The position numbers were made by a program, and so were the translations under genes. The notes under the pieces are model-generated. The model was not told where the DNA came from, searched no databases, and worked only from the letters and a program-made list of their open reading frames with translations. DNA of 64,000 bases from Clytia hemisphaerica. Taxonomy: Eukaryota; Cnidaria; Hydrozoa; Leptothecata; Clytiidae. The stretch spans positions 1,588,458-1,652,457 of the forward strand of contig CACVBU010000276.1 in NCBI GenBank assembly GCA_902728285.1. The letters are read 5' to 3'. Shown one piece after another: positions 21,650 through 58,412 of this stretch (position 1 is the first letter of the stretch; each line of letters begins with the position of its first letter).

Positions 21650-24274
21650 GGCATACCGGATAAGTGGGATGGGGGAACCTGGGAACCTAAAGTGGGAACC
21701 TAAATGAACACCTGAAAAGTGGGATGGGGGAACCTAAAGTGGGAACCTAAATGAACACCTGGAAAGTGGGATGGGGGAACCTAAAGTGGGAACCTAAATG
21801 AACACCTGAAAAGTGGGATGGGGGAACCTAAGTGGGAACCTAAATGAACACCGGAAAAGTGGGATGGGGAACCTAAGTGGGAACCTAAATGAACACCGGA
21901 AAAGTGGGATGGGGGAACCTAAGTGGGAACCTAAATGAACACCGGAAAAGTGGGATGGGGGAACCTAAGTGGGAACCTAAGTTGTTAAATTATTAATATA
22001 ATTGAAATATTTTTCTTTAAAAACAATTACATAACGTAGTTTAAGAAGAATTCCTTTATGTTTAAATAAATAGGTCTATTGAAAATGGCGATTTGTGTTT
22101 ACTTTTCAAATTTTGAAAATTTTGAAAAGATGTGCACATATTTTTTACCTGAAAAGTGGGATGGGGGAACCCGGGAACCTAAAGTGGGAACCTAATTTGT
22201 TATTATTATTATTTTTCTTTAAAAACAAATACATAAAGATAAGAAAGATATTATATGCAAGGAAAGAAAAAACCTTTTATCATAATAAGAACACCAGTTA
22301 TTTACTTTTTACATTACGGTTCGCAAACAATAATGTTGAAAATAAAACAAAGGGAATTTATTTATTCAATTAGCTCAAAAAAGCATGATTATTTATCAGC
22401 AGTTTTATAGTGCATCTTTTTGAAAGGTTCTTTTTAGTAAATTGACTTAATTGACTTTAAACTTTAAACTTTAAACCGTCATATCTTCAAATCTAGAAGG
22501 AATTAGAAGTTCGTTCATAGCTCGATGGATAACTTAGAGCCTCTTCTTTCTTTTGCACGGATCTAATTTGCTTGAATACAGAATCTAGTAAAACATTATT
22601 TACGATCTAGTTTTTGTTCACTCTTGATGCAATACACATTGTTTTTTATTAGCAGCTCCAATTTTCGGGTCAGGGCTGGGGTCGCTTAGCATTTAACGGA
22701 TTCTAGCTCGTTTTTCTTTCTGTACCAACCAAACAGTACAGCGTGTGAATACACTTCATTAATTAAAAATGTTTGATAGTAAAATAGAACATATTGCACG
22801 GCTTGCCACGTTTCAATACACATAAGCATAGATCCACGGGGGGGGGCACTCAAGGTAAACGACCTACCGTACGTGCGGACCTTTTTTCCAAGCTTCCCAA
22901 AGTACACTGTAAGGGTGGAAATTAGCAAAAATGAGAATAAGTGCACTCTAAGGGTTTAAAATTTGGTCAAAGCCAGTCCGGCTTTTAAAATTTCATCCGA
23001 ACAAGTGTCATGTTTTAACACTGGGTAAATTTTGGAACATCAAATATGTCCATCCCTATCAGGATCTGTTCTAGAACATGTTGACCAAGAAAAAGATCTA
23101 GGAGTGATAATCGATAGTGACCTGACCTTTGAAGCCCATATATTCAGTAAAATCAAGAAAGCTAACTCTATCGTTGGCTTGATTAGCAGGAGCTTCGAAT
23201 TTCTCTCACCAGATATGTTTCGAACGCTTTTCATTGCATTTGTCAGACCCCATTTGGAATATGCACATGCAGTATGGTCTCCAAGGCTAATCAAACATAT
23301 CAATGCAATCGAGGGCGTCCAACGAAGAGCTACAAGGCTAATTAGTTGCTATAGAAACTACTCATACGAAGATCGGCTACGACTCATCAATCTACCTAGC
23401 CTAAAGACCAGGCGGCAAGTTGGTGATATGGTGGAAGTTTTCAAGAACCTCCACATTTATGACGAGTCTATAAGATCAGAGAAATTTACTCCTCGAACAC
23501 GACCACGACGTCAGCATGATTACGAGCTTCAAAGGAACTTTGCTAATGACGGTATGAGGGCTACCAAAGCAACTCTCTTTTTTACAGAAGTGTGAAACCT
23601 TGGAATGATCTAGAAGAAGATATTGTTGAAGCACCATCCTTACAAGTCTTCAAAGAGCGTTTGATAAAAGAAAGGGAGAAAAAACTTTATAAAATGTAAA
23701 ATCAAAAGTTCTGTTTCATAGGAGGTCAATCGACGTGCGAAATATATTGCTATAAAAAAATAAAAATGAAAAAAATAAAATAAAAAAAATAAAAAATTAG
23801 GTTCCCACTTTAGGTTCCCAGGTTCCCCCATCCCACTTTTCCGGTGTTCATTTAGGTTCCCACTTAGGTTCCCCCATCCCACTTTTCAGGTGTTCATTTA
23901 GGTTCCCACTTAGGTTCCCCCATCCCACTTTTCAGGTGTTCATTTAGGTTCCCACTTAGGTTCCCCCATCCCACTTTTCAGGTGTTCATTTAGGTTCCCA
24001 CTTAGGTTCCCCCATCCCACTTTTCAGGTGTTCATTTAGGTTCCCCACTTAGGTTCCCCCATCCCACTTTTCAGGTGTTCATTTAGGTTCCCACTTAGGC
24101 TCCCCCATCCCACTTTTCAGGTGTTCATTTAGGTTCCCACTTAGGTTCCCCCATCCCACTTTTCAGGTGTTCATTTAGGTTCCCAATTAGGTTCCCCCAT
24201 CCCACTTTTCAGGTGTTCATTTAGGTTCCCACTTTAGGTTCCCAGGTTCCCCCATCCCACTTATCCGGTATGCC
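21650..24274. mobile_element. Non-autonomous Mutator-like element with tandem-repeat ends
   Basis: The ends are GGCATACCGGATAAGTGGG and its exact reverse complement. A perfect 9-bp duplication GAAAAAGAG flanks them (21641-21649 and 24275-24283), as expected for Mutator-like transposition. Each inverted end is a tandem array of a unit of about 48 bp (core AAGTGGGATGGGGGAACCTA, then GTGGGAACCTAAATGAACACC): about seven units at 21665-21980 and about ten at 23795-24270. One stray unit sits at 22150-22192. The centre carries no transposase but holds a retrotransposon fragment at 23032-23697, so the element must be moved by a protein supplied from elsewhere. Confidence 0.88.
23032..23697 (+). pseudogene. 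LINE reverse-transcriptase C-terminal fragment, frameshifted
   Basis: The frame reads DQEKDLGVIIDSDLTFEAH, then FVRPHLEYAHAVWSP and IEGVQRRATRLI, a pattern seen downstream of the reverse transcriptase core in CR1/L2/Jockey-type LINEs. A one-base slip in the T run near 23580 shifts the frame. The continuation KPWNDLEEDIVEAPSLQVF, then KERLIKEREKKLYKM, ends at a stop at 23695-23697. The catalytic core is missing. It lies between the two arrays of the element at 21650-24274. Confidence 0.8.
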
Positions 24275-25991: not shown

Positions 25992-28321
25992 TAGGGTGTA
26001 AACTGGAACCATGAAAAAATACTTTTTTTGGATTTTCAAAATTGTCACAATTTTTTATCAAAATTTATCATATTGTAAGACTTCTTGCGCAATTTTTAGG
26101 TCCATACGTCAAAAATCCACTGTTTGCCCCAGGGGTATCTGATTCGCGGTAGTAGCAAAAAACAGCAAAAATGGCATTTTTTTTCCATTTTAAGACTATA
26201 AAAGGCCAGGAAATGGTAAAAATGGTTTCTAAATGGTGTCTCGTACTAATATTCAACACAAAAAGACAAAATAACCCCAGCGAGATCGCTCAATGTTTCA
26301 ATTTCAGGCTAAAAAGGCCGATTTTCTCGGATCCTGGGTAGCAAAATGCATGAAAGCAGCATTTTTGAGGACCCACAACTTTTAAACTTTTTAAGGTACA
26401 CACTTGAAATTTTCAGCAATGAAACACTTCAGAGAAAGCTCCAGGAAAAATCAAACTTGAGTTTTCAAATATTTCCTATAAATCCATAATGGCGCCCTAT
26501 AAATTGAGTTTTCATGCTAAATTCTAATATTTCAGGCTAAAACTTGGTTTTCTCTGGCTAGAATCTCAAAAATGGTTTCAAATGGTGTCCTGAAATCTTT
26601 GGGTGTTGAAAGTATTCAGGAAAAACTCTGGGAGAATCAAAATGGTTTGGGTCAGAAATTTGCCTAAGTCTGCCATTATTGTATTGCATTTCCCACTAAA
26701 ATGCAATTTTTAGAGTTAAAGTCTAACTTTCTCAGGCTAGAATCTCAAAAATGGTTTCAGATAGGGTCCTGAAATCTTTTGGGGTTGAAAGTATTTTGGA
26801 TTGGGAGAACCAAAATGGTTCGGGTTAGAAATTTGCCAAAGTTCGCCACTATGGAATTGCATTTCCCACTAAAACGCAATATTTAGAGTTAAAGTCTGAT
26901 TTTCTTAGGCTAAAATCTCAAAAATGGTTTTAAATAGGGTCCTGAAATCTTTTGGGGTTGAAAGTATTCTGGATATACTCTGGGAGAACCAAAATGGTTT
27001 GGTTTTGAAATTTGCCTAAGTCTGCCAATATGGTATTGCATTTCCTACTAAAACGTGATATTTAAGAATTATAGTCTAATTTTCTCAGGCTAAAATCTCA
27101 AAAGTGGTTTCAAATAGGGTCCTGAAATCTTTTGGTGTTGAAAGTATTCTGGAAATACTATGGGAAAACCAAAATGGTTTTGGTCAGAAATTTGCCAAAG
27201 TCTGCCATTATGGAATTGTATTTCATTCTAAAACACAATGTTTTGAGTAAGCTTGAGTGTTCTTCTAAAGAAATGAAATTCATAATGGCAGACTTTAGCA
27301 TATTATATGACCATTGTGAACCACTATGATTTTCCTTGAGTGTTCCCAGAATACTTTCAACACCAAAAGAATTCAGGACCCTATTTGAAACCATTTTTGA
27401 GATTTTAGCCTGAGAAAATCAGACTTTAACTTTAAATATTGCGTTTTAGTGGGAAATGCAATACCATAATGGCAGACTTGGGCAAATTTCAAACCCAAAC
27501 CATTTTGGTTCTCCCAGAGTTTTTCCTGAATACTTTCAACACCCAAAGATTTCAGGACACCATTTGAAACCATTTTTGAGATTTTAGCCTGAGAAAATCA
27601 GACTTTAACTCTAAATATTGCGTTTTAGTGGGAAATGCAATACCATAATGGCAGACTTGGGCAAATTTCTGACCCAAACCATTTTGATTCTCCCAGAGTT
27701 TTTCCTGAATACTTTCAACACCCAAAGATTTCAGGACACCATTTGAAACCATTTTTGAGATTTTAGCCAGAGAAAACCAAGTTTTAGCTTGAAATATTGG
27801 AATTTAGCATGAAAACTCAATTTATAGGGCGCCATTATGGATTTATAGGAAATATTTGAAAACTCAAGTTTGATTTTTCCTGGAGCTTTCTCTGAAGTGT
27901 TTCATTGCTGAAAATTTCAAGTGTGTACCTTTAAAAGTTTAAAAGTTGTGGGTCCTCAAAAATGCTGCTTTCATGCATTTTGCTACCTAGAATCCGAGAA
28001 AATCGGCCTTTTTAGCCTGAAATTGAAACATTGAGCGATCTCGCTGGGGTTATTTTGTCTTTTTGTGTTGAATATTAGTACGAGACACCATTTAGAAACC
28101 ATTTTTACCATTTCCTGGCCTTTAATAGTCTTAAAATGGACAAAAAATGCTAATTTTGCCGTTTTTTGCTACTACCGCGAATCAGATACCCCTGGGGCAA
28201 ACAGTGGATTTTTGACTTATGGACCTCAAAATTGCACAAAAAGTCTTACAATATAATAAATTTTGATAAAAAATTGTGACAATTTTGAAACTCTAAAATT
28301 CAAAATCCAGTTTACACCCTA
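25992..28321. mobile_element. 2.3-kb palindromic element with tandem subrepeats
   Basis: The ends TAGGGTGTAAACTGG and CCAGTTTACACCCTA are inverted, and nearly the whole element folds on itself: each arm is about 1.1 kb with its centre near 27300. A direct repeat CTTTAAA flanks it (25985-25991 and 28322-28328). Each arm contains two to four copies of a unit of about 180 bp (marker text CTGGGAGAA.CAAAATGGTTT). Several frames of 63-78 codons on either strand mirror each other across the centre and are not genes. The architecture resembles 21650-24274, without a clear 9-bp duplication. Confidence 0.78.
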
Positions 28322-33587: not shown

Positions 33588-34430
33588 GTACACCCATTAG
33601 TAACCTTTTACAAAAAAAATAAAGTTTATAACTGCTTCCAATTTTTCAGTTAGTCGAGGAACGTGTCCCTAACTGACTTTAACCAAAATGTGAAAAAGTG
33701 AAATTCGGGCTTTCTGGCCAACTTGGATCAAATGGTATGGCTTCCATTTATAGAAAGGACGCAACCATTGAGTTTCAAGCCCGAAGGGCTAGAGGTCAAT
33801 CTCTTTGGTAGGATTTGAAGCCAACAAATCCTACCAAAGTTGCGCGGCCTTGAGCGACCCGCCTGGTTTTTACACAAATGACAGATTGAAACTAAAATTT
33901 ACCGCTAAATTTTGAAAAATATTTCACTCAAAAACAAAGGAATTGCTAGATTCAATCCGTCATCAAAAATACGGCGCATATTTAAAGGCTTCAATTTTTC
34001 TTGCCTGAGAAAGGTTAAAGATTGACCTCTAGCCCTTCGGGCTTGAAACTCAATGGACGCAACCTAAACCCATTAGTGACCTTTTACAAAATAAATGAAG
34101 TTCATAGCTGCTTCCAATTTTTCAGTTAGTCGAGGAACGTGTCCCTAACTGACTTTAACCAAAATGTGAAAAAGTGGAATTCGGGCTTTCTGGCCAACTT
34201 AGATCGAATGGTATGGCTCCCATTTATAGAAAGGACGCAACCTACACCTATTAGTGACCTTTTAACAAAAAAAATGAAGTTCATAGCTGCTTCTAATTTT
34301 TCAGTTAGTCGAGGAACGTGTCCCTTACTGACTTTAACCAAAATGTGAAAAAGTGGAATTCGGGCTTTCTGGCCAACTTGGATCGAACGGTATGGCTCCC
34401 ATTTACATTTATAGATATAATGCAACATTG
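33588..34430. repeat. Tandem array, about 177-bp unit, left copy
   Basis: Three units share TTTTTCAGTTAGTCGAGG, ACGTGTCCCTAACTGAC, GGCTTTCTGGCCAACTTGG and GACGCAACC. They are inverted relative to the eight-unit array at 56885-58412. A MITE (33766-34055) interrupts the first junction. The minus-strand frames here (34428-34126, 34538-34305) run through the repeats and are not genes. Confidence 0.85.
33766..34055. mobile_element. MITE inserted in the tandem array
   Basis: Arms of about 35 bp: CATTGAGTTTCAAGCCCGAA and TTCGGGCTTGAAACTCAATG, continuing GGGCTAGAGGTCAATCT and its mirror. The array sequence GGACGCAACC occurs on both sides (33757-33766 and 34055-34064), giving an 8-10 bp target duplication depending on where the arm is taken to begin. 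hAT-type (8) or Mutator-type (9) are both possible. Confidence 0.78.
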
Positions 34431-40000: not shown

Positions 40001-43000
40001 CCAAAATTCGCGAAAATTTCTGCTGGCAAAAGCTTGTACGCCTAAAGTACTTCCACCCCTTGAACATAACTATTTATTTTGGTCTTTACGATGCGTATTA
40101 AAGCGGTGGTGATAAATCTTCCCCGTCAGATGGTCCATAATACATCAAACTCGAAAAATTTAATAAAAATCGTTGAAGTCTACCATTCTGATGACGTCAT
40201 AAATAGAAAAACTTGAATAACTTCATATAGAAAAAAAATTCGAACTCAAATTTTGATCAAACTTCATCTTACAGTGTGACTTTTCGGATGAATCTTCAAT
40301 GCCGTTGTCGATAGAAGTATTGAACAGGGAAATATGAGTTGTTTTGGCTATAGTAACAGAAGATAAAGGATTAAAGCATCAATGATAAAGAATCCATAAA
40401 TGATAAAGGATAGTCTTATTTTCACCACTTTGTGAGTATTTTTGTGCAATTTGAATCAAAGCTTTATGTTTATCAAAATCATCAAGCATTTAAAGTCAAT
40501 AACGTTCGACTATAACTGCAGTTCAAATTGATTTTACTTTCTGGTTGATTTGAAATTACTTACGAAACGCGCTCGATTCATCGTTTTTAAAATCCATGTT
40601 TTCATCAGTTATAATTTTCGTGGTGAGAGGGGCTAAAATGTAAAGCAAAGTCGTCATAAGCATTAAAAGTCAATAACGTTCAACTACAATTTCAATTAAA
40701 ATTGATTTTACTTTCTAGATGATTTCATTCCTACATTTTGAAATTACTTACGAAACGCGCTCGATTCATCGTTTTTTGGATCCATGTTTTCATCAGTTAT
40801 AGTTTTCGTGGTGAGAGGGGCTAAAATGTAAAGCAAAGTCGTCATAAGCATTAAAAGTCAATAACGTTCAACTACATTTTCAATTAAAATTGATTTTACT
40901 TTCTAGATGATTTTATTCCTACATTTTGAAATTACTTACGAAAGGCGCTCGATTGATCGTTTTTTGGATCCATGTTTTCATCAGTTATAGTTTTCGTGGT
41001 GAGAGGGGCTAAAATGTAAAGCAAAGTCATCATAAGCATTAAAAGTCAATAACGTTCAACTACAATTTCAATTAAAATTGATTTTACTTTCTAGATGATT
41101 TTATTCCTACATTTTGAAATTACTTACGAAAGGCGCTCGATTGATCGTTTTTTCGATCCATGTTTTCATCAGTTATAGTTTTCGTGGCGAGAGGGTCTAA
41201 AATGTAAAGCAAAGTCATCATAAGCATTAAAAGTCAATAACGTTCAACTACAATTTCAATTAAAATTGATTTTACTTTCTAGATGATTTTATTCCTACAT
41301 TTTGAAATTACTTACGAAAGGCGCTCGATTGATCGTTTTTTGGATCCATGTTTTCATCAGTTATAGTTTTCGTGGTGAGAGGGGCTAAAATGTAAAGCAA
41401 AGTCATCATAAGCATTAAAAGTCAATAACGTTCAACTACAATTTCAATTAAAATTGATTTTACTTTCTAGATGATTTTATTCCTACATTTTGAAATTACT
41501 TACGAAAGGCGCTCGATTGATCGTTTTTTGGATCCATGTTTTCATCAGTTATAGTTTTCGTGGTGAGAGGGGCTAAAATGTAAAGCAAAGTCATCATAAG
41601 CATTAAAAGTCAATAACGTTCAACTACAATTTCAATTAAAATTGATTTTACTTTCTAGATGATTTTATTCCTACATTTTGAAATTACTTACGAAAGGCGC
41701 TCGATTGATCGTTTTTTGGATCCATGTTTTCATCAGTTATAGTTTTCGTGGTGAGAGGGGCTAAAATGTAAAGCAAAGTCATCATAAGCATTAAAAGTCA
41801 ATAACGTTCAACTACAATTTTAATTAAAATTGATTTTACTTTATAGATGATTTTATTCCTACATTTTGAAACTACTTACGAAAGGCGCTCGATTGATCGT
41901 TTTTTGGATCCATGTTTTCATCAGTTATAATTTTCGTAGTGAGAGGAGCTAAAATCAAAATGATCAAGCATTTAAAGTCAGGTGTAACTTCTAAAATCGT
42001 TAAAATCAGGTAGGGTGATTTTCGAAAAGCTTTTAAATTAATTTTCTTTGTATTACTTTGTTCCTCTATCATTTTGCTGTTTCTTTAGTGATATTTTCCG
42101 ACTGAAAGCAAGTTCGAACACGTGTTGAAAGTATGACAAATGGATTACCTGCACAAGAATCTCGACTGCATGGTTGTTTCACTATCCTCTTCCTTATTGT
42201 TCTGTGGTGTTTGGTTGTTATATGAATATCGGCTTCTCTGATGATGTCAACATCAACTACAATGCTTTTTGTTTCTTGTCTATTTTTGTTTTTCCTCAAT
42301 GGTGCTTCTGGATGTTTTGACGTTAGTATTTTTGACGCGATAAAATATCTTGCATTGCCACAATCTTCTTTTGTCAATTTCAGGAATGTATCATCAATGG
42401 TGTTGAGTGCATTTATGCAAGCATACACTCCACAATCTACAACGCCCTCTTGTAAGTCAATATCGGCTCTCGAGACAAAAAGCCATTCTTCTTTGGTTGT
42501 GTTCTTCTTCAAGACACTTGCAATCAAGTGCTTCACAAAACTGAATACACTAGACATAATCTCCGGATTGACGATAAGAAGTGAATCTAAGTGATGGATT
42601 TGTTTTGTCAGGAAGTAAATGACGATGATTGACCAATGGTTATGACTGTGGTGAATTGGAAGGATCAGTTGTCGTTTTGAAAGTATGTCCTCGTAGTTCT
42701 CGGGGTTTAAGTGTACAGATGATCTTCCACTTTCAATACTCGTATAAACATGGCTGTTGAAAACATGGATGTCGTCCCTTCCATAGGATATTGCCTGTAG
42801 AAACCCGTTGATGACATCTCCTTTCAAGCACTTGTTTGGGATCAGGCTTCGGAACTCTTCGGTTCTTATACCATTTAACTCAGCATGACCTTCTTCACCT
42901 AACCATACTCTTTCTACTTCTCTCTTTTCCTCTTCTGTTGTATGAAAGTTAAGTGGTTGACGATCCGAACCTGTATCTTCACGCACATAAAACAATGTAG

Positions 43001-46000
43001 ATACTGTCGATTCAACATCATATGAACCGAGGAAGTTTTCTTCATCTTCGATATAAATCTTTGTATCATTTATTGTAACAATTCGTTCGTCAAAGAACGT
43101 AACAGTGAAGTGGCCAGCATTCACAGTTTTGCCAGTGTGATTAATCATGGCAAATAAGTTGTAAGAGACGCCTTCCAAGCTACTCGCACAAAAGAGTTTG
43201 AACTGAAGGTGTCTTTCAATGATTACTCTCGACCGTATAACTTTGACGTTTTTCCCGACATGCCCTCTGTTAATTGAAACAACGAGTATCGATGGCGCGT
43301 TAAGAATTGTGGAGGTTTGGTGAAACATGACTGGACATTCACAAAACGAGTTATTTCCCCAGGTTCTTGGTGGGTGGCCAAAACAAGCATGACGAATCAA
43401 GGAATCCAAAGTCATTCGTTGTGAAGTTTTGAAGACCGATACATGTAAAGATGGGTGAGCTGAAACATTTCCATATATTTTATTGCATCGGTTGCAAGTG
43501 TTAAGTTCAGCAACTCTGATAAAGAAATACTCCGTAAGAGCAGGACAATCACTGTTCAGTTTGCAGATTAGATCAAAATAAAACTGGTATTCACAACACT
43601 GCTGATGGTCGGATAGTCGTATATTTGATACTAGTTGAGTTAGTGCTGTCCAATCTACCAGTGCGCCATTTGACTGTACCTCTAACGGTTGGTTGACATT
43701 TTGAAGTTTTTCATTGACAACAACAAGATGCTTGAAGATTTCATTTTCAGGTTGACATATGCTGGATAGAAAATCAAACAAGGTAGAGCCACATACAACT
43801 TGCAAGACTGTGCTCATCCAACAGTTGTTGAGAGGATTTATTATACCGGAACAGGATATTCGTTTGATATCCAGCGTACAAGCAAGCTTTTTGGGCAGTG
43901 AAATCTGCTTGATTACATCTCTTTCCTCTTTAGTTTTTCGATTCCAAAGAAAATCCAAAACCTCAATGGAGGTCTCTTCCGAATTTTTGAAAGCCATGTA
44001 ATCTGCAAACGGCAGGAAACGGCATCTTACACAAGGTGCACAAATGAAATTTAGGCAAACTTTGCCGTAATTCACATCCGTACCTGTGCACTCTGAGTGG
44101 TAACTTTTCCGACAGATACTACATTTGATTCGAGAACCTACGCGATCTTCGCCGCAGGCAGCACAATAATTTTCTCCTGTGTCTTCACTTTTCTTCTTCT
44201 CAGGAAAAGTCAAAGTCTTCTTTCTTGCGGATCGATAAATACCAATTTCGTTGACGTCTGTTCGTTTTGTTTTCTTATTCCAACCTTCTTCCACCTTTGG
44301 AGCTTTTCTTGGAATGAAATCTTCGTTATTGATCTTTGGTGTTCTTTCCAGGACGAATTTATCTTGACCGTGAACAAGCATATCATAAAATTGACGCTGT
44401 TGCCAGTGCAGATCCCGGTAAGTGTTTTCAATAAATTCTGGGATAGGCTGATTCAAGCCTTGGAGACGTTTCAAATTGGAGAAATACCCCTCAACTTGGG
44501 CAGTTGTCGTGTTGCTTTTCATAATAGATTTTGAAGCCGAAGGTTGCTGCTCTTCCTGGTTGTTAGCTCGAAATCTAGTCAAATTACCGAGGCAGAGACC
44601 AGTCCAAAGGGTTGCCGTGGGAAGTCTATAGTGCATTACGAAATTGAAATAAGATGGCGCGTAAAATTCATTGTTGATCTCTTCATTTGTTGCAGTTTGG
44701 ACAGAAAAACCAGATAAAGCGTTGTCCCAAAATCTAGACAATTCAGTTAATGGTTGGTTACTGCCTGTCTTTGTTTTCTTCGTTTCTTCTATGGATGCTA
44801 AGAAATCGTCTTCATCTGCCTCGATACTGGCAAGGGTGTTTTCGTTTTCTTCATCTTTGGGGTTCTCTGCGTTTGGGGTATCTTTCAAAATCTCTTGAAT
44901 ATGTGGAAACTGTCCAATTGACCTCTCGATCTCCTCAACTGCCTCGTGAACTGTTTTACCGTAGTTAACAACATCAGTGGTCGGCGTCATAAAAACAATT
45001 TGGCCAAGCTTCACCAATTCCTCAAGTTCTGCGAGAAATCTACATTCTGTTAGCCGGGAAAACCAGTGCATGGCGAGGCTTACAGCTTTCTTTGGTGATT
45101 TTAATTTTTTCAAGACATATTTGTTTCTTTTTGTGATATGAGAAAAGCAAATATGTAACAAAGTTTTCATCAAATTGTCTTCCAATCCATTGACGATTCG
45201 GAATGTTCTGTTGATATATTCCGGAAGAGATTCACCGCAAAATTCATTCACACAGGCAACGATCAACGCAACAGAATAATCAACGAGGATAAGGGACGGT
45301 CTTGAAATTTTGTTGAAAACAAGTTTCTCCTTCTCTTGTAACGACATGAGAAAACGGCGGATCGACGGTACTGAATGTGAACTAGACAGATATTGCGCTA
45401 TTGGAAGAGGGGGTGCTAAGCCGTATGGATGACGTACGCAAAGTGAATAAAGGAGAATACGCTTACACTCTTTTAACGGTAGGGTAACACTACCAGTCGC
45501 ATCTAGGTACACTATGTCTTGATAGTTCTTTTCGTGATACAACCTAATCAATCCCTCAGTCGTTAATGTGATCCGCACCTCCTTGTCTACCATGACATCA
45601 TGAACATAGCCATAAAATTTTCTTGCCTGCTTTTGTTCTTGTGCCTTCGCACGGTCTTCGTTTTCAATCTTTGACGCCACTTGTTGAACTTTTTCGTGTA
45701 GAAAGGCTTTTTTCGTGTTGGGGCTCCTAACCTCAGATTTTATTTTCTGATAAATTTTTGGGGATCTCCCGGCTTCCTCTCTGTTTCCTGCTGCAAAAAC
45801 AGTTGACTTGATCTTTGCCAATTTCTCCCCATAAACTTTACTAGGAGGAGTCTTCAAATTCTTCTCAAACCTTCGATGCTCCGATTTTCTTTTTCTGCCA
45901 GATATGATGTCAGCGCTGGTTTTCCTGATATCGTGTGAAACTTTGCCATCAAATAAAAGTGTCGCATACTGGCAATCTTCCTTCATGATTGACACCTTAG

Positions 46001-47261
46001 CTGAAAAATTGCATTCTGGTCTTTTACAACGCAGATGGCATATCCAATAGGGGGTACTTGATTTCTTTTTTGATTGGTCGTTGTTCAATCTTTGGTGGTT
46101 GACGACTAAACTGCAATATTCGTTATGTTTTTTTACCATTGGGAATAAAAGCTCTTTATATTTGTTCTCAAATCTTCGATAGGTCGAATTATCACTTTGT
46201 ATTATTCTAAGCTTTTGCCAATCGTTTGAAAGCTTTTCACGTAAGCTTTTCTGTTTGAGACGATAAGTAAACACGCCACTTTTTGGAATTTGAGCTGACG
46301 TCAAAAGGTTTGCGGTTGTTGAACTAATTTCACGTAAGAAGAATGAGTCCTTAGGGCATTCGCTTTGGTCAATATCGGATGCTGATGACGAGCTGCTTTC
46401 GGATTCGGTAATTCCAATGTCAACATCAGTTTCATTTTTCACACCAAGGTCAACATCAGTTTCATTTTTCACACCAAGGTCAACATCAGTTTCATTTTTC
46501 ACACCAAGGTCAGCATCAGTTTCATTTTTCACACCAATGTCATTCTTCTTATGAGTTGTATTTTTCACGTTTGAGGTACTAGAAAGCCTTTCCACTGTAT
46601 ATTTAGTTAACTCTACGGCCGTTTTCGATAATACAGATGCTGCAAAACTTTCCATTCTATCCAATATCACATTCTCCTTATTCGACTTTTTACGTGATTT
46701 GGTGGTTCTGGAACTCGTCTTAGGATTTCGACGATCCAATGAATCAACGACATTCCTTAATCTTTCTGATTCCGGTGTAGTCTCTCTCACAGGGACAAAC
46801 AATTCTTCGACTCTCTCAGTGGATTGTTCATATGGTTCGTTGGTTCTTGAACTTGTTTGAGGAATTGGTAGATCAATGTCATCGTTGCTTTTCGGTATTT
46901 CATAGACAGGTACACTCACTGGTGAGCAATTTTCTCCAACTTGTTCGATTTGTTCTTGATATTCTTCACAAAATTTACTGGTTCCATCTTGAAGCATTTC
47001 CGAGGATTCCCCAACATTAAATATTTCAGCAAACGAAATAGACGAAGCTTTGTCAATAGATTTAATATACTCCCGAAAGAGGTGTTTCACTTTATGGTCA
47101 GGAGGTGGTTTCGTAGCATTGTAATATTTTTGGGTTATCTCCTTCCATATTATTTTATCAAATGATTTTTTGTTACGGTTCTTCAAAGGGATAAGTTGCA
47201 ACAGGCGATCCAAATCGATCTCTAGCGAAAATGTACGTCGTTTTCTTCCTTCTCTTGGCAT
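37012..47261 (-). CDS. Transposase-PHD-USP-Ulp1 multidomain protein, 14 exons
   Basis: Exon 1 is 47261-42149. Then come eight 69-bp exons (41948-41880, 41760-41692, 41572-41504, 41384-41316, 41196-41128, 41008-40940, 40820-40752, 40632-40564), 40347-40273, 39708-39568, 38553-38503, 37692-37633 and 37499-37012. All junctions are GT-AG and phase 1; the total is 6,480 bp, or 2,159 residues. An optional symmetric exon lies at 38206-38141. Approximate residues: Myb/SANT-like 1-65; four GVKNETDVDL repeats 240-280; Cys-rich 400-420; transposase-like core 560-960 with YLDATGS, LILVDYS, HICFSH and AQVEGYFSNLK; PHD finger 1030-1075; USP domain with NNCWMST (about 1147), AGHF (about 1383) and IND (about 1399); Ulp1 domain with HNHWS (about 1541), HLDS, DLQEG and DCGVY (about 1609). 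The USP and Ulp1 catalytic residues appear intact. The unspliced frame would stop at 42069. The last exon encodes an unrecognised domain (LLVPEAFTYFTMKKLNKSY). An AG near 47295 suggests an upstream untranslated exon. Confidence 0.82.
40564..41948 (-). repeat. Eight-copy tandem exon-intron array, 188-bp period
   Basis: Eight units each hold a TTTTAG acceptor, a 69-bp exon and a GTAAGT donor. Exon starts lie exactly 188 bp apart. Each exon adds 23 residues (PLTTK.ITDENMDPKNDQSS core) without shifting frame. The fourth exon from the right edge of the minus order differs (LATK, DRKND) and the two 3'-most exons carry KNDESS. Introns are as similar as exons, so the array grew by unequal exchange of whole units. 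Confidence 0.95.
46430..46545 (-). repeat. Four in-frame 30-bp coding repeats
   Basis: The decapeptide GVKNETDVDL is encoded four times in a row inside exon 1 of the large gene, followed by an acidic serine-rich stretch. It probably lies in a disordered linker before the Cys-rich segment. Confidence 0.9.
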
Positions 47262-47289: not shown

Positions 47290-47904
47290 GCTTAACTAAA
47301 AAATTTTAATGATAATAAAACTGTTGGGAAGAAATAAAACATAACCTCCGGAAACTGAAAAAAAAAAAAAAAGCACATCGACGCTCAGCCAAAATTAAGA
47401 CGTTCTAATAGAAAAAACGTGATTTTTTTATAAAATAAGCGTGTAACTGATGAAGGCAAACAGGAGAGTACGAGTTTTCCAAGACAAGATAACAAGATAT
47501 GTTGATTTAGAAGAATAAAAATTACTATTCCTTCAAATCATCATTTTTTCCTTTGATTAAAAAGTTATTCCCACGGGAATATATTGTTATCGTTTACTCT
47601 TGTTGACTGATGCATGTCCATTCAATTAACTTTTATGGTAGAATTAACATGATGACTGATCAAATGTGCTTGGACTAATCTTGTTTTTTCTCTACAGTGA
47701 CGTCTTAATGATTTTCAACAGGAGGATTCGGTAGCTTGTATCTCGAGAAAAAAAGGCAGAAAAATGTTTTTTAAAAGAAATAATACGCTCTAATGAAAGT
47801 CCCGCGCGAAATCACAGGCAAAAACAAAAACGCTGCGGAAAGGTTTCATGCATGTACGGTTAATTATTACATATATTTTTTTTGTGAAACACCCTGTAAA
47901 GCCC
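47290..47904. other. Upstream region of the large gene
   Basis: A possible acceptor (TTTTTTAG on the minus strand near 47295) precedes the start codon by about 35 bp. No TATA box or coding exon is evident. Confidence 0.3.
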
Positions 47905-48023
47905 CTCTCAGTGGATTGTTCATATGGTTCGTTTGTTCTTGAACTTGTTTGAGGAATTGGTAGATCAATGTCATCGTTGCTTTTCGGTATTTCATAGACA
48001 GATACACTCACTGGTGAGCAATT
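47905..48023 (-). pseudogene. Duplicated fragment of exon 1 of the large gene
   Basis: A 119-bp copy of 46813-46931 with two mismatches, offset by 1,092 bp and in the same orientation. Its translation (VYEIPKSNDDIDLPIPQTSS) matches the N-terminal part of the protein. It abuts the 63-bp minisatellite, which begins immediately after it. Confidence 0.92.
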
Positions 48024-48024
48024 A

Positions 48025-50085
48025 TTGAGACGAAATCCAATTAAATCTGTTCATTGTTTCAATCAAATCCAGACGGTTCATTGTTCCATGTTGCATCAGT
48101 AAAATGTCCAATTCTTGAGATGAAATCCAATCCAAACGGTTCATTGTTCCATGTTGCATCAGTGAAGTGTCCAATTCTTGAGATGAAATCCAATCCAAAG
48201 GGTGCATTGTTCCATGTTGCATCGGTAAAATGTCCAATTCTTGAGATGAATCCAATCCAAAGGGTTCATTGTTCCACGTTGCATCATTGAAATGTCCAAT
48301 TCTTGAGATGAAATCCAATCGAAACGGTTCATTGTTCCATGTTGCATCAGTGAAGTGTCCAATTCTTGAGACGAAATCCAATCCAAGCAGTTCATTGTTC
48401 CATGTTGCATCAGTAAAATGTCCAATTCTTGAGATGAAATCCAATCCAAACGGTTCATTGTTCCATGTTGCATCAGTGAAGTGTCCAATTCTTGAGATGA
48501 AATCCAATCCAAAGGGTGCATTGTTCCATGTTGCATCGGTAAAATGTCCAATTCTTGAGATGAAATCCAATCCAAAGGGTTCATTGTTCCACGTTGCATC
48601 ATTGAAATGTCCAATTCTTGAGATGAAATCCAATCGAAACGGTTCATTGTTCCATGTTGCATCAGTGAAGTGTCCAATTCTTGAGACGAAATCCAATCCA
48701 AGCAGTTCATTGTTCCATGTTGCATCAGTAAAATGTCCAATTCTTGAGATGAAATCCAATCCAAGCAGTTCATTGTTCGATGTTGCATCAGTAAAATGTC
48801 CAATTCTTGAGATGAAATCCAATCCAAACGGTTCATTGTTCCATGTTGCATCAGTGAAGTGTCCAATTCTTGAGACGAAATCCAATCCAAGCAGTTCATT
48901 GTTCCATGTTGCATCAGTAAAATGTCCAATTCTTGAGATGAAATCCAATCCAAACGGTTCATTGTTCCATGTTGCATCAGTGAAGTGTCCAATTCTTGAG
49001 ATGAAATCCAATCCAAAGGGTGCATTGTTCCATGTTGCATCGGTAAAATGTCCAATTCTTGAGATGAAATCCAATCCAAAGGGTTCATTGTTCCACGTTG
49101 CATCATTGAAATGTCCAATTCTTGAGATGAAATCCAATCCAAAGGGTTCATTGTTCCATGTTGCATCAGTAAAATGTTCAATTCTTGAGACGAATCCAAT
49201 CTAAAGGGTTCATTGTTCCATGTTGCATCAGTAAAATGTCCAATTCTTGAGATGAAATCCAATCCAAGCAGTTCATTGTTCGATGTTGCATCAGTAAAAT
49301 GTCCAATTCTTGAGATGAAATCCAATCCAAACGGTTCATTGTTCCATGTTGCATCAGTGAAGTGTCCAATTCTTGAGACGAAATCCAATCCAAGCAGTTC
49401 ATTGTTCCATGTTGCATCAGTAAAATTTCCAATTCTTGAGATGAAATCCAATCGAAACGGTTCTTTGTTCCATATGTTGCATCAGTAAAATGTCCAATTC
49501 TTGAGATGAAATCCAATCCAAGCGGTTCATTGTTCCATGTTGCATCAGTGAAATGTCCAATTCTTGAGATGAAATCCAATCCAAGCAGTTCATTGTTCCA
49601 TGTTGCATCAGTAAAATGTCCAATTCTTGAGATGAAATCCAATCCAAGCAGTTCATTGTTCCATGTTGCATCAGTAAAATGTCCAATTCTTGAGATGAAA
49701 TCCAATCGAAACGGTTCTTTGTTCCATGTTGCATCAGTAAAATGTCCAATTCTTGAGATGAAATCCAATCCAAGCAGTTCATTGTTCGATGTTGCATCAG
49801 TAAAATGTCCAATTCTTGAGATGAAATCCAATCCAAACGGTTCATTGTTCCATGTTGCATCAGTGAAGTGTCCAATTCTTGAGACGAAATCCAATCCAAG
49901 CAGTTCATTGTTCCATGTTGCATCAGTGAAGTGTCCAATTCTTGAGATGAAATCCAATTAAAACGGTTCATTGTTCCATGTTGCATCAGTAAAATGTCCA
50001 ATTCTTGAGATGAAATCCAATCCAAACGGTTCATTGTTCCATGTTGCATCAGTAAAATGTTCAATTCTTGAGACGAATCCAATCT
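48025..50085. repeat. 63-bp minisatellite, about 33 units
   Basis: Units read TTCATTGTTCCATGTTGCAT, CAGTAAAATGTCCAATTCTT, GAGATGAAATCCAATCCAA. Variants alternate (AAACGG, AAGCAG, AAAGGG; AGTGAAG or AGTAAAA) in higher-order groups. Because 63 is a multiple of three and the unit lacks stops in several frames, frames of 151-430 codons stay open on both strands; a few 1-2 bp deletions shift them. I see no start context or splice signal that makes any of them a gene. Confidence 0.93.
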
Positions 50086-50099
50086 AAAATTATCAGAGC

Positions 50100-56494: not shown

Positions 56495-56884
56495 ATGGAC
56501 TACCCCTCTGCCCAGTGACTGCCTGCCCCTATCGGGGAAAAAAATGTTGGGGAAAAGTGTTGAAAATTTTTAGGGGGTGACAGACTAGTATTCACTGAAG
56601 TACCTGCTTTGTATGGTGAGCTTGAAAACATTGTTTGGCATAATCTTATTCTTCAACATTTCTACAGATGTTTTTTTCACTGATACGTGATAGTGAAAAA
56701 GAAGCACGTTTCTCCGCCATTTTTAATTTATCACTGATTGTATTGGTACCGCGATTGATAAATTGAACAACGGTGTTCCGGGCGTCTTTAGCTTTTACTA
56801 CCCCGCCCACGGGCGTTTTTTTATTTTTGAATAAACAACATTGCCCAACCTCGTGTTCGTGTATCCCAGGCTTTATTGAAAGCA

Positions 56885-58412
56885 GCCATGAACTTCATTT
56901 TTTTGTAAAAGGTAACTGATTGGTGTAGGTCTGGTAGGTTGCGTCCTTTCTATAAATGGGAGCCATACCATTCGATCCAAGTTGGCCAGAAAGCCTGAAT
57001 TCCACTTTTTCACATTTTGGTTAAAGTCAGTTAGGGACACGTTCCTCGACTAACTGAAAAATTGGGAGCAGCTATGAACTTCATTTATTTTGTAAAAGGT
57101 CACTAATGGGTGTAAGTTGCGTCCTTTCTATAAATGGGAGCAATACCGTTCGATCCAAGTTGGCCAGGAAGCCCGAATTCGACTTTTTCACATTTTGGTT
57201 AAAGTCAGTAAGGGACACGTTCCTCGACTAACTGAAAAATTAGAAGCAGCTATGAACTCATTTTTTTTGTAAAAGGTCACTAATAGGGTGTAGGTTGCGT
57301 CCTTTTTTATAAATGGGAGCCATACCGTTCGATCTAAGTTGGCCAGAAAGCCCGAATTTCACATTTTGGTTAAAGTCAGTTAGGGACACGTTCCTCGACT
57401 AACTGAAAAATTAGAAGCAGCTATGAACTTCATTTTTTTTGTAAAAGGTCACTAATAGGTGTAAGTTGCGTCCTTTCTATAAATGGGAGCAATACCGTTC
57501 GATCCAGGTTGGCCAGAAAGCCCGAATTTCACTTTTTCACATTTTGGTTAAAGTCAGTTAGGGACACGTTCCTCGACTAACTGAAAAATTGGAAGCAGCT
57601 ATGAACTTCATTTCTTTTGTCAAAGGTCACTAATGGGTGTAGGTTGCGTCCTTTTTATAAATGGAAGCCATACCATTTGATCCAAGTTGGCCAGAAAGCC
57701 CGAATTTCACTTTTTCACATTTTGGTTAAAGTCAGTTAGGGACACGTTCCTCGACTAACTGAAAAATTGGAAGCAGCTATGAACTTCATTTTTTTTGTAA
57801 AAGGTCACTAATGGGTGTAGGTTGCGTCCTTTCTTTAAATGGAAGCCATACCATTTGATCCAAGTTGCCAGAAAGCCCGAATTTCACTTTTTCACATTTT
57901 GGTTAAAGTCAGTTAGGGACACGTTCCTCGACTAACTGAAAAATTGGAAGCAGCTATGAACTTCATTTTTTTTGTAAAAGGTCACTAATGGGTGTAGGTT
58001 GCGTCCTTTCTATAAATGGAAGCCATACCATTTGATCCAAGTTGGCCAGAAAGCCCGAATTTCACTTTTTCACATTTTGGTTAAAGTCAGTTAGGGACAC
58101 GTTCCTCGACTAACTGAAAAATTGGAAGCAGCTATGAACTTCATTTTTTTTGTAAAAGGTCACTAATGGGTGTAGGTTGCGTCCTTTCTATAAATGGAAG
58201 CCATACCATTTGATCCAAGTTGGCCAGAAAGCCCGAATTTCACTTTTTCACATTTTGGTTAAAGTCAGTTAGGGACACGTTCCTCGACTAACTGAAAAAT
58301 TGGAAGCAGCTATGAACTTCACTTCTTTTGTAAAAGGTCACTAATGGGTGTAGGTTGCGTCCTTTCTATAAATGGGAGCCATACCGTTCGATCCAAGCTG
58401 GCTAGAACACTT
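56885..58412. repeat. Tandem array, about 177-bp unit, right copy
   Basis: Eight units share GGACACGTTCCTCGACTAAC, GGTTGCGTCCTTTCTATAAA and GATCCAAGTTGGCCAGAAAG. The array is the reverse complement of the three-unit array at 33588-34430. The outer edges of the two arrays fall at different places in the unit, so a simple shared terminus is not visible. Confidence 0.9.

Follow-up and report, generated by a model that had tools for sequence, protein, structure and literature searches.

A Clytia hemisphaerica protein family combining a transposase-like core with PHD, USP and Ulp1-type protease domains

Why would one protein carry a PHD finger, a ubiquitin-specific protease (USP) domain and a Ulp1-type, putative SUMO protease domain together with a transposase-like core? 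The question was raised by a locus in a 64,000-nucleotide stretch of the genome of the hydrozoan Clytia hemisphaerica (contig CACVBU010000276.1, positions 1,588,458 to 1,652,457), hereafter called the window, in which an earlier note made from the DNA letters alone had proposed such a protein. We consider it somewhat probable that the protein belongs to an old, multi-copy family of Clytia and other animals that resembles transposable elements (Mutator-like elements, MULEs, or other elements with a D-D-CxxH-E core), and that joins all four parts. The domains, most of their catalytic residues, their conserved order and purifying selection were all observed, and the argument is carried mainly by the database protein P0005 and the Clytia copy C558.

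One uninterrupted open frame of 1730 amino acids runs from 42069 to 47261 of the window on the minus strand, which the earlier note had left unstated and on which all gene features given below lie, and its stop-free run of 1731 codons has a chance probability of ~1e-55 from base composition alone. Position 42149, the left end given in the earlier note, is an exon end with GT directly after it. All 14 sequence motifs that were checked were present in the window protein. The protein search found a single near-identical protein for this frame, the public gene model P0002 (1821 amino acids, "uncharacterized protein"), which is identical to it as far as 42149 and beyond that point splices into small 3′ exons drawn from a 188-bp tandem array (40549–41955). 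The array comprised eight units, seven listed by script and the first found by eye, and each had an AG acceptor and a GTAAGTA donor around a 69-nt exon. Five units were the C-terminal exons of the public model. The splice sites were intact and the phase was kept in all eight; the dead copies C539 and C594 contained one unit only, which was inverted.

Three protein searches found at least eight relatives, one being the window's own gene model. Two of the searches scored the best 7993 and 7983 candidates by shared words, so further relatives may exist, and the third missed P0003. P0005 (1791 amino acids, from an ENA source, 7 member sequences) displayed the order core-PHD-USP-C48 that had been read in the window, with the UCH and C48 domains above the Pfam cut-off and the PHD finger below it (22.0 bits). 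P0006 contained the core, the PHD finger and the first half of the USP domain, the last two below the cut-off, and P0003 contained the core and the PHD finger only. The latter two are EukProt models ("Seg...GoldUCD"), which we take to come from the Gold laboratory's Aurelia genome; a search of the literature brought no confirmation.

Matching stretches in the Clytia genome (417 Mb, 951 contigs) numbered at least 43, that of the window among them; they were spread over 20 contigs, and 29 of them had stops; 27 of 226 candidates were scored, and several stretches were overlapping pieces of one copy. Copy C558 was 58% identical to the window protein over residues 1–1573 and comprised the core, PHD finger, USP domain and part of C48, with USP and the C48 part above the cut-off. 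Its C48 runs on in another frame after a frame change. Copy C472 had one frame of 1422 amino acids, with USP as the only Pfam domain, the C48 His, Asp, Gln and Cys by alignment and a degenerate PHD finger. Copy C883 had one frame of 2111 amino acids, with C48 from Pfam, a PHD finger of 23.3 bits (below the cut-off) and the USP Cys, His and Asp by alignment. The nearly identical copies C819 and C470 carried core, PHD, USP and C48 in several frames, and Pfam found USP in C470 and C48 in C819. A 3818-aa frame in C597 was rejected as an artefact of an N run.

In a tree of the core, the Clytia sequences fell in four separate branches, and the window and C558 lay within a group of eight that included P0003 to P0008 (support 86/96; drawn open). 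The simplest reading is that the core-PHD-USP-C48 fusion is older than the splits in this tree. Unrelated genes fused by mistake in the assembly or in the gene model would also place these domains side by side. Nothing was found in favour of this, and its probability is negligible, since the window holds a single open frame in genomic DNA, and the same order recurred in P0005 and, fully or partly, in paralogues elsewhere in the Clytia genome, on different contigs. A gene-model fusion artefact was rejected on these grounds.

The USP (C19/UCH) domain comprises residues 1139–1425 (42987–43847), with C1147, H1384 and N1398 at the catalytic positions. When excised, the region matched PF00443 above the cut-off at E = 7.6e-18 over profile positions 2–254 of 254 (4.6e-16 in the whole protein). 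A single-sequence search of PDB chains gave no significant match for this catalytic domain. The Ulp1/SENP (C48) domain, a putative SUMO protease, comprises residues 1465–1648 (42318–42869) and contains H1542, D1559, Q1604 and C1610, the full set that the earlier note had recognized. It matched PF02902 above the cut-off at E = 7.2e-11 when excised (1.4e-9 in the whole protein), and single-sequence phmmer against PDB chains recovered Ulp1/SENP, with yeast Ulp1 (1euv) at 1e-12. A profile that included P0005 and P0006 matched SENP1 at 2e-16, a KDM7/PHF8-type PHD finger at 5e-7 and USP21 at 1.5e-3. A Foldseek search with a low-confidence model of the C-terminal half matched Ulp1/SENP at 2e-7; all 39 matches at E ≤ 0.001 were Ulp1-like, and USP was absent from these 39. 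The AlphaFold model meant for USP (predicted local distance difference test score, pLDDT, 35) was too poor to settle that fold. Profile searches recovered both protease domains with their catalytic residues in place, save for Asn at the third USP position, and the domain order recurred in P0005, so the refuting outcome named in the earlier note did not occur.

The catalytic residues were counted over aligned rows that include the window. The USP Cys was kept in 7/7 and the His in 6/6, P0006 ending before the His. In C48, His was kept in 7/7, Asp in 5/7, and Gln and Cys in 6/6 each; C558 ends before Gln and Cys, and the C48-bearing copies C133 and C470 were left out of these counts.

The PHD finger (residues 1033–1077, 44031–44165) had all eight ligands of the C4HC3 set, as noted earlier, but its score for PF00628 when excised (E = 3.4e-4, 21.0 bits) was under the cut-off of 24, and the Pfam scan of the whole window protein did not list it. 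Among the relatives scanned, only P0003 exceeded the cut-off (30 bits), and P0005, P0006, C558 (21.6), C883, C819 and C470 scored from 18.1 to 23.3 bits. The profile match to the PHF2/PHF8 PHD finger owes much to P0005 and P0006. A Trp that aligns with a PHF8 Trp, presumably the H3K4me3 cage residue of PHF8 and PHF2, was found in P0003, P0005 and P0006; it is Ser in the window and is also absent from C558 and C883. Methyl-lysine reading is therefore doubtful for the PHD finger of the Clytia copy, in which the cage Trp is replaced by Ser, and would be plausible for the three relatives.

The transposase-like D-D-CxxH-E core was placed at residues 500–960 (44382–45764) by residue conservation in aligned rows. 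It comprises D587 in YLDATGS (45501–45503), D661 in LVDYS (45279–45281), C705-x2-H708 (45138–45149) and E924 in QVEGYF (44490–44492). The rows were the window, seven proteins from the databases and six Clytia paralogues picked because their frames were open. D587, D661, C705 and H708 were kept in 14/14 rows, and E924 in the 12/12 rows that span it (P0004 and P0008 end earlier). All five residues were kept even in P0009, a short relative of 25% identity on which Pfam was silent at E ≤ 1. The D-D-CxxH-E order is expected of MULE transposases; the spacing between the second D and E is long (263 residues).

In front of the core, residues 385–445 (45927–46109) form a weakly WRKY-like beta region with C412, C417 and H443, which is possibly a DNA-binding zinc finger. 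The relatives' profile matched 2ayd, the WRKY-like signal, at E = 0.13, and 2ayd was also the top Foldseek match of the region at E = 0.05, which is not significant.

Long-term purifying selection on the family was evident. The ratio of nonsynonymous to synonymous rates (dN/dS) between the window and C558 was 0.135 over 1499 codons, with dS near 2 and saturated. By region, it was 0.30 for residues 1–330, 0.088 for the core, 0.27 for the PHD finger and 0.20 for USP, and dS was not estimable for C48.

Several results weigh against the interpretation that the family is transposon-like and its domains functional, and they concern the protease domains, the core, the recent history of the window copy and the boundaries of the copies. 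At the third triad position of USP, the window has Asn1398, and Asp was found in 5/5 relatives spanning it. The member of the residue pair that we take as the third triad residue was picked after USP7. In USPs this residue is usually Asp, and Asn in some. The earlier note had read Cys, His and Asp here; the first two stood, and its Asp is the next residue, because the alignment puts the third position at Asn1398. The C48 Asp is Ser in C883 (L031) and Asn in C819 (L035), with His, Gln and Cys kept. Pfam also missed UCH in C883, and C48 and PHD in C472; these domains were assigned by alignment. The substituted residues could mean that USP and C48 serve for binding and have little or no catalytic activity, either in this copy or in the whole family. 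The Asn at the USP position and the replaced C48 Asp in two copies would fit this, but the Cys and His of both proteases were kept in all aligned sequences that span them, and USP evolved under a dN/dS of 0.20, so we regard such a loss of catalysis as quite improbable.

For the core, no Pfam transposase match was found in the window protein. The D-D-E landmarks of the earlier note were thus present and conserved but had no Pfam hit behind them. PF10551 (MULE) did not match the window core, and among the 8 proteins scanned only P0004 reached E = 0.13. The AlphaFold model of the core (pLDDT 42) was too poor to settle the fold, and Foldseek of that model gave no match at E ≤ 0.001. KDZ, hAT and integrase were considered as identities of the core, and none was among the Pfam hits. 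A viral origin was rejected as well: two viral_contigs scans gave 29 and 111 pattern matches, and no relative was found by tblastn.

The recent history of the window copy was compared with C594 and C539, which are ~90% copies. Its dN/dS was 0.73 against C594 and 0.66 against C539, which is near neutral. These two are duplicates of one dead copy, since they share disabling deletions. When changes were polarised with C558, the window branch had 20 nonsynonymous and 12 synonymous changes and the dead-copy branch 60 and 13, with 33 sites unresolved (Fisher test, p = 0.045). This gave modest support to constraint on the window copy after its split from the dead copies. The selection proposed earlier is therefore clear against C558 but weaker for the recent history of the window copy.

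MULEs have terminal inverted repeats (TIRs) and target-site duplications (TSDs) of 8–11 bp. Comparison of the two flanks of the window gene revealed no recognisable TIR (strongest inverted match, E = 0.05), and neither did that of 4 paralogues; for two of these, the flank available on a side was just 130–699 bases. No TSD candidate was found in the window, the sole place scanned. The match between C819 and C470 extends over 9.4 kb, and the two look like haplotigs or a large duplication, so they yield no insertion boundary. Both close pairs, C594/C539 and C819/C470, look like duplications of larger stretches. In a search of the 5′ flank, homology to C539 ended upstream at window 47737 without a recognisable terminus. 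In C539, the gene is interrupted close to its start by an insert of ~3.5 kb, probably another element; an overlap of 4 bases lies at window 47197–47200. The dispersed repeat at window 47528–47883, upstream of the gene, had ~70% identity to many places in the genome.

The 3′ exons of the public model also weigh on this side, as a host gene could have such exons. A domesticated host gene, whose core no longer moves DNA and whose product is a chromatin-bound eraser of ubiquitin and SUMO, would account for these spliced exons of an annotated gene and for the missing TIRs and TSD; it would also fit the fewer nonsynonymous changes on the window branch than on the dead-copy branch, and P0002 being the lone member of its 90% protein cluster. 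We nevertheless hold domestication to be unlikely, given that a single genome holds many copies, both open and dead, and that D, D, C, H and E are unbroken in the aligned rows. Core catalytic residues are often lost in domestication. The transposon reading, in turn, draws on the copy number, the dead copies, the D-D-CxxH-E residues and the faint MULE and WRKY signals. By these sequence characters, the core is likely, though not proven, to be that of a transposase.

From this architecture we infer transposition, DNA and histone binding, and protease activity, together with their targets and purpose, as follows. The core and the N-terminal Cys/His region would bind element DNA, the PHD finger would help to keep the protein at chromatin, where ubiquitin and SUMO nearby would be removed by the two proteases. 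As a result, the transposase might be kept from degradation, or, at the element, silencing or repair signals that depend on SUMO and ubiquitin might be undone. Going by the domains, the two proteases probably make up an anti-silencing or self-stabilising module. The proteases might instead work in cis, where they would process or stabilise the protein, for example by untagging the transposase, in a manner unrelated to host silencing. Both enzymes being in one chain is in keeping with this; the observations fit cis and trans action alike, and we rate cis action as somewhat unlikely. Along with the module reading, we tentatively raise a further proposal, which we think rather doubtful: an element lineage in Clytia, and in a second jellyfish class if the EukProt models are Aurelia, would long have kept a self-contained chromatin machine against silencing, in which a DNA-binding transposase core, a reader of histones, a deubiquitinase and a SUMO protease share one chain and counter silencing that depends on SUMO and ubiquitin at the element.

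Each part of the protein has a precedent, and the three-domain combination on one protein is unusual. One close likeness is Ginger1 of Hydra, a hydrozoan transposase; Ginger1-4 to -10 and -12_HM are described with a C-terminal Ulp1, and Ginger1-9_HM with Ulp1 and a PHD finger (PMC2836005). However, the same source gives Ginger1 a Gypsy-integrase-type core and either OTU or Ulp1, not both, and its Table 1 has no USP (PMC2836005). No integrase match was found by Pfam in the window core, so it cannot be classed with that of Ginger1. Ulp1 on Mutator elements, which the earlier note knew from plants, is described from hydra and lancelet too (PMC2836005). Plant non-TIR MULEs carry Ulp1 together with the anti-silencing VANC, and KIU elements cause hypomethylation of related elements (PMC13317346). 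They share with the Clytia family Ulp1, a plausible D-D-CxxH-E core and the lack of recognised TIRs. In contrast, Ulp1 there sits in VANC/KIU genes and not in a transposase-PHD-USP chain, and the relevant passages mention no USP (PMC13317346).

Ubiquitin proteases have been reported with other transposons. As cited in PMC2836005, the Trichomonas vaginalis protein XP_001314237.1 joins transposase_11 and Peptidase C19, and it thus resembles the window protein in having a C19-type protease on a transposase; it differs in coming from a protist and in its transposase family, and that account mentions neither PHD nor Ulp1. Helitrons are animal transposons bearing VTD and/or OTU deubiquitinases, 121 of them with both classes (PMC9741609). 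They differ in their rolling-circle RepHel and in having VTD/OTU instead of USP, and the relevant passages name no SUMO protease (PMC9741609). C48 has also been found with Cryptons (PMC3212892). USP, Ulp1 and PHD on one transposase were not found in the parts of the open-licence literature covered, Repbase lying outside the search. The earlier note had known of no animal element with a USP domain; the combination indeed was not found, but C19 on a transposase has its protist precedent in Trichomonas (PMC2836005). A role in repair after transposition has been proposed for such transposon proteases (PMC2836005), and published cases show transposons that captured Ulp1, OTU, VTD or a C19 protease (PMC2836005, PMC9741609). 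Clytia is kept in laboratories. In such an animal, a family that has kept predicted erasers of both ubiquitin and SUMO next to a PHD finger under long-term purifying selection makes the targets, be they the transposase or repair or silencing factors, directly testable.

Repeats were also observed beside the gene. A gene fragment of 119 bp at 47905–48023 (minus strand), 98% identical to 46813–46931, is an upstream duplicate. It adjoins a 63-bp minisatellite (48061–50088) of ~32 copies, both strands of which contain long open frames. A 46-bp minisatellite unit occurred in opposite orientation at 21681–21980 and 23820–24243, ~2 kb apart, and by eye these could be arms of another element. Two ~180-bp tandem arrays (26548–27248 and 27319–27799) appeared by eye to be mutually inverted, and the units of two ~178-bp satellite arrays (34055–34405 and 56875–58407) likewise looked like reverse complements.

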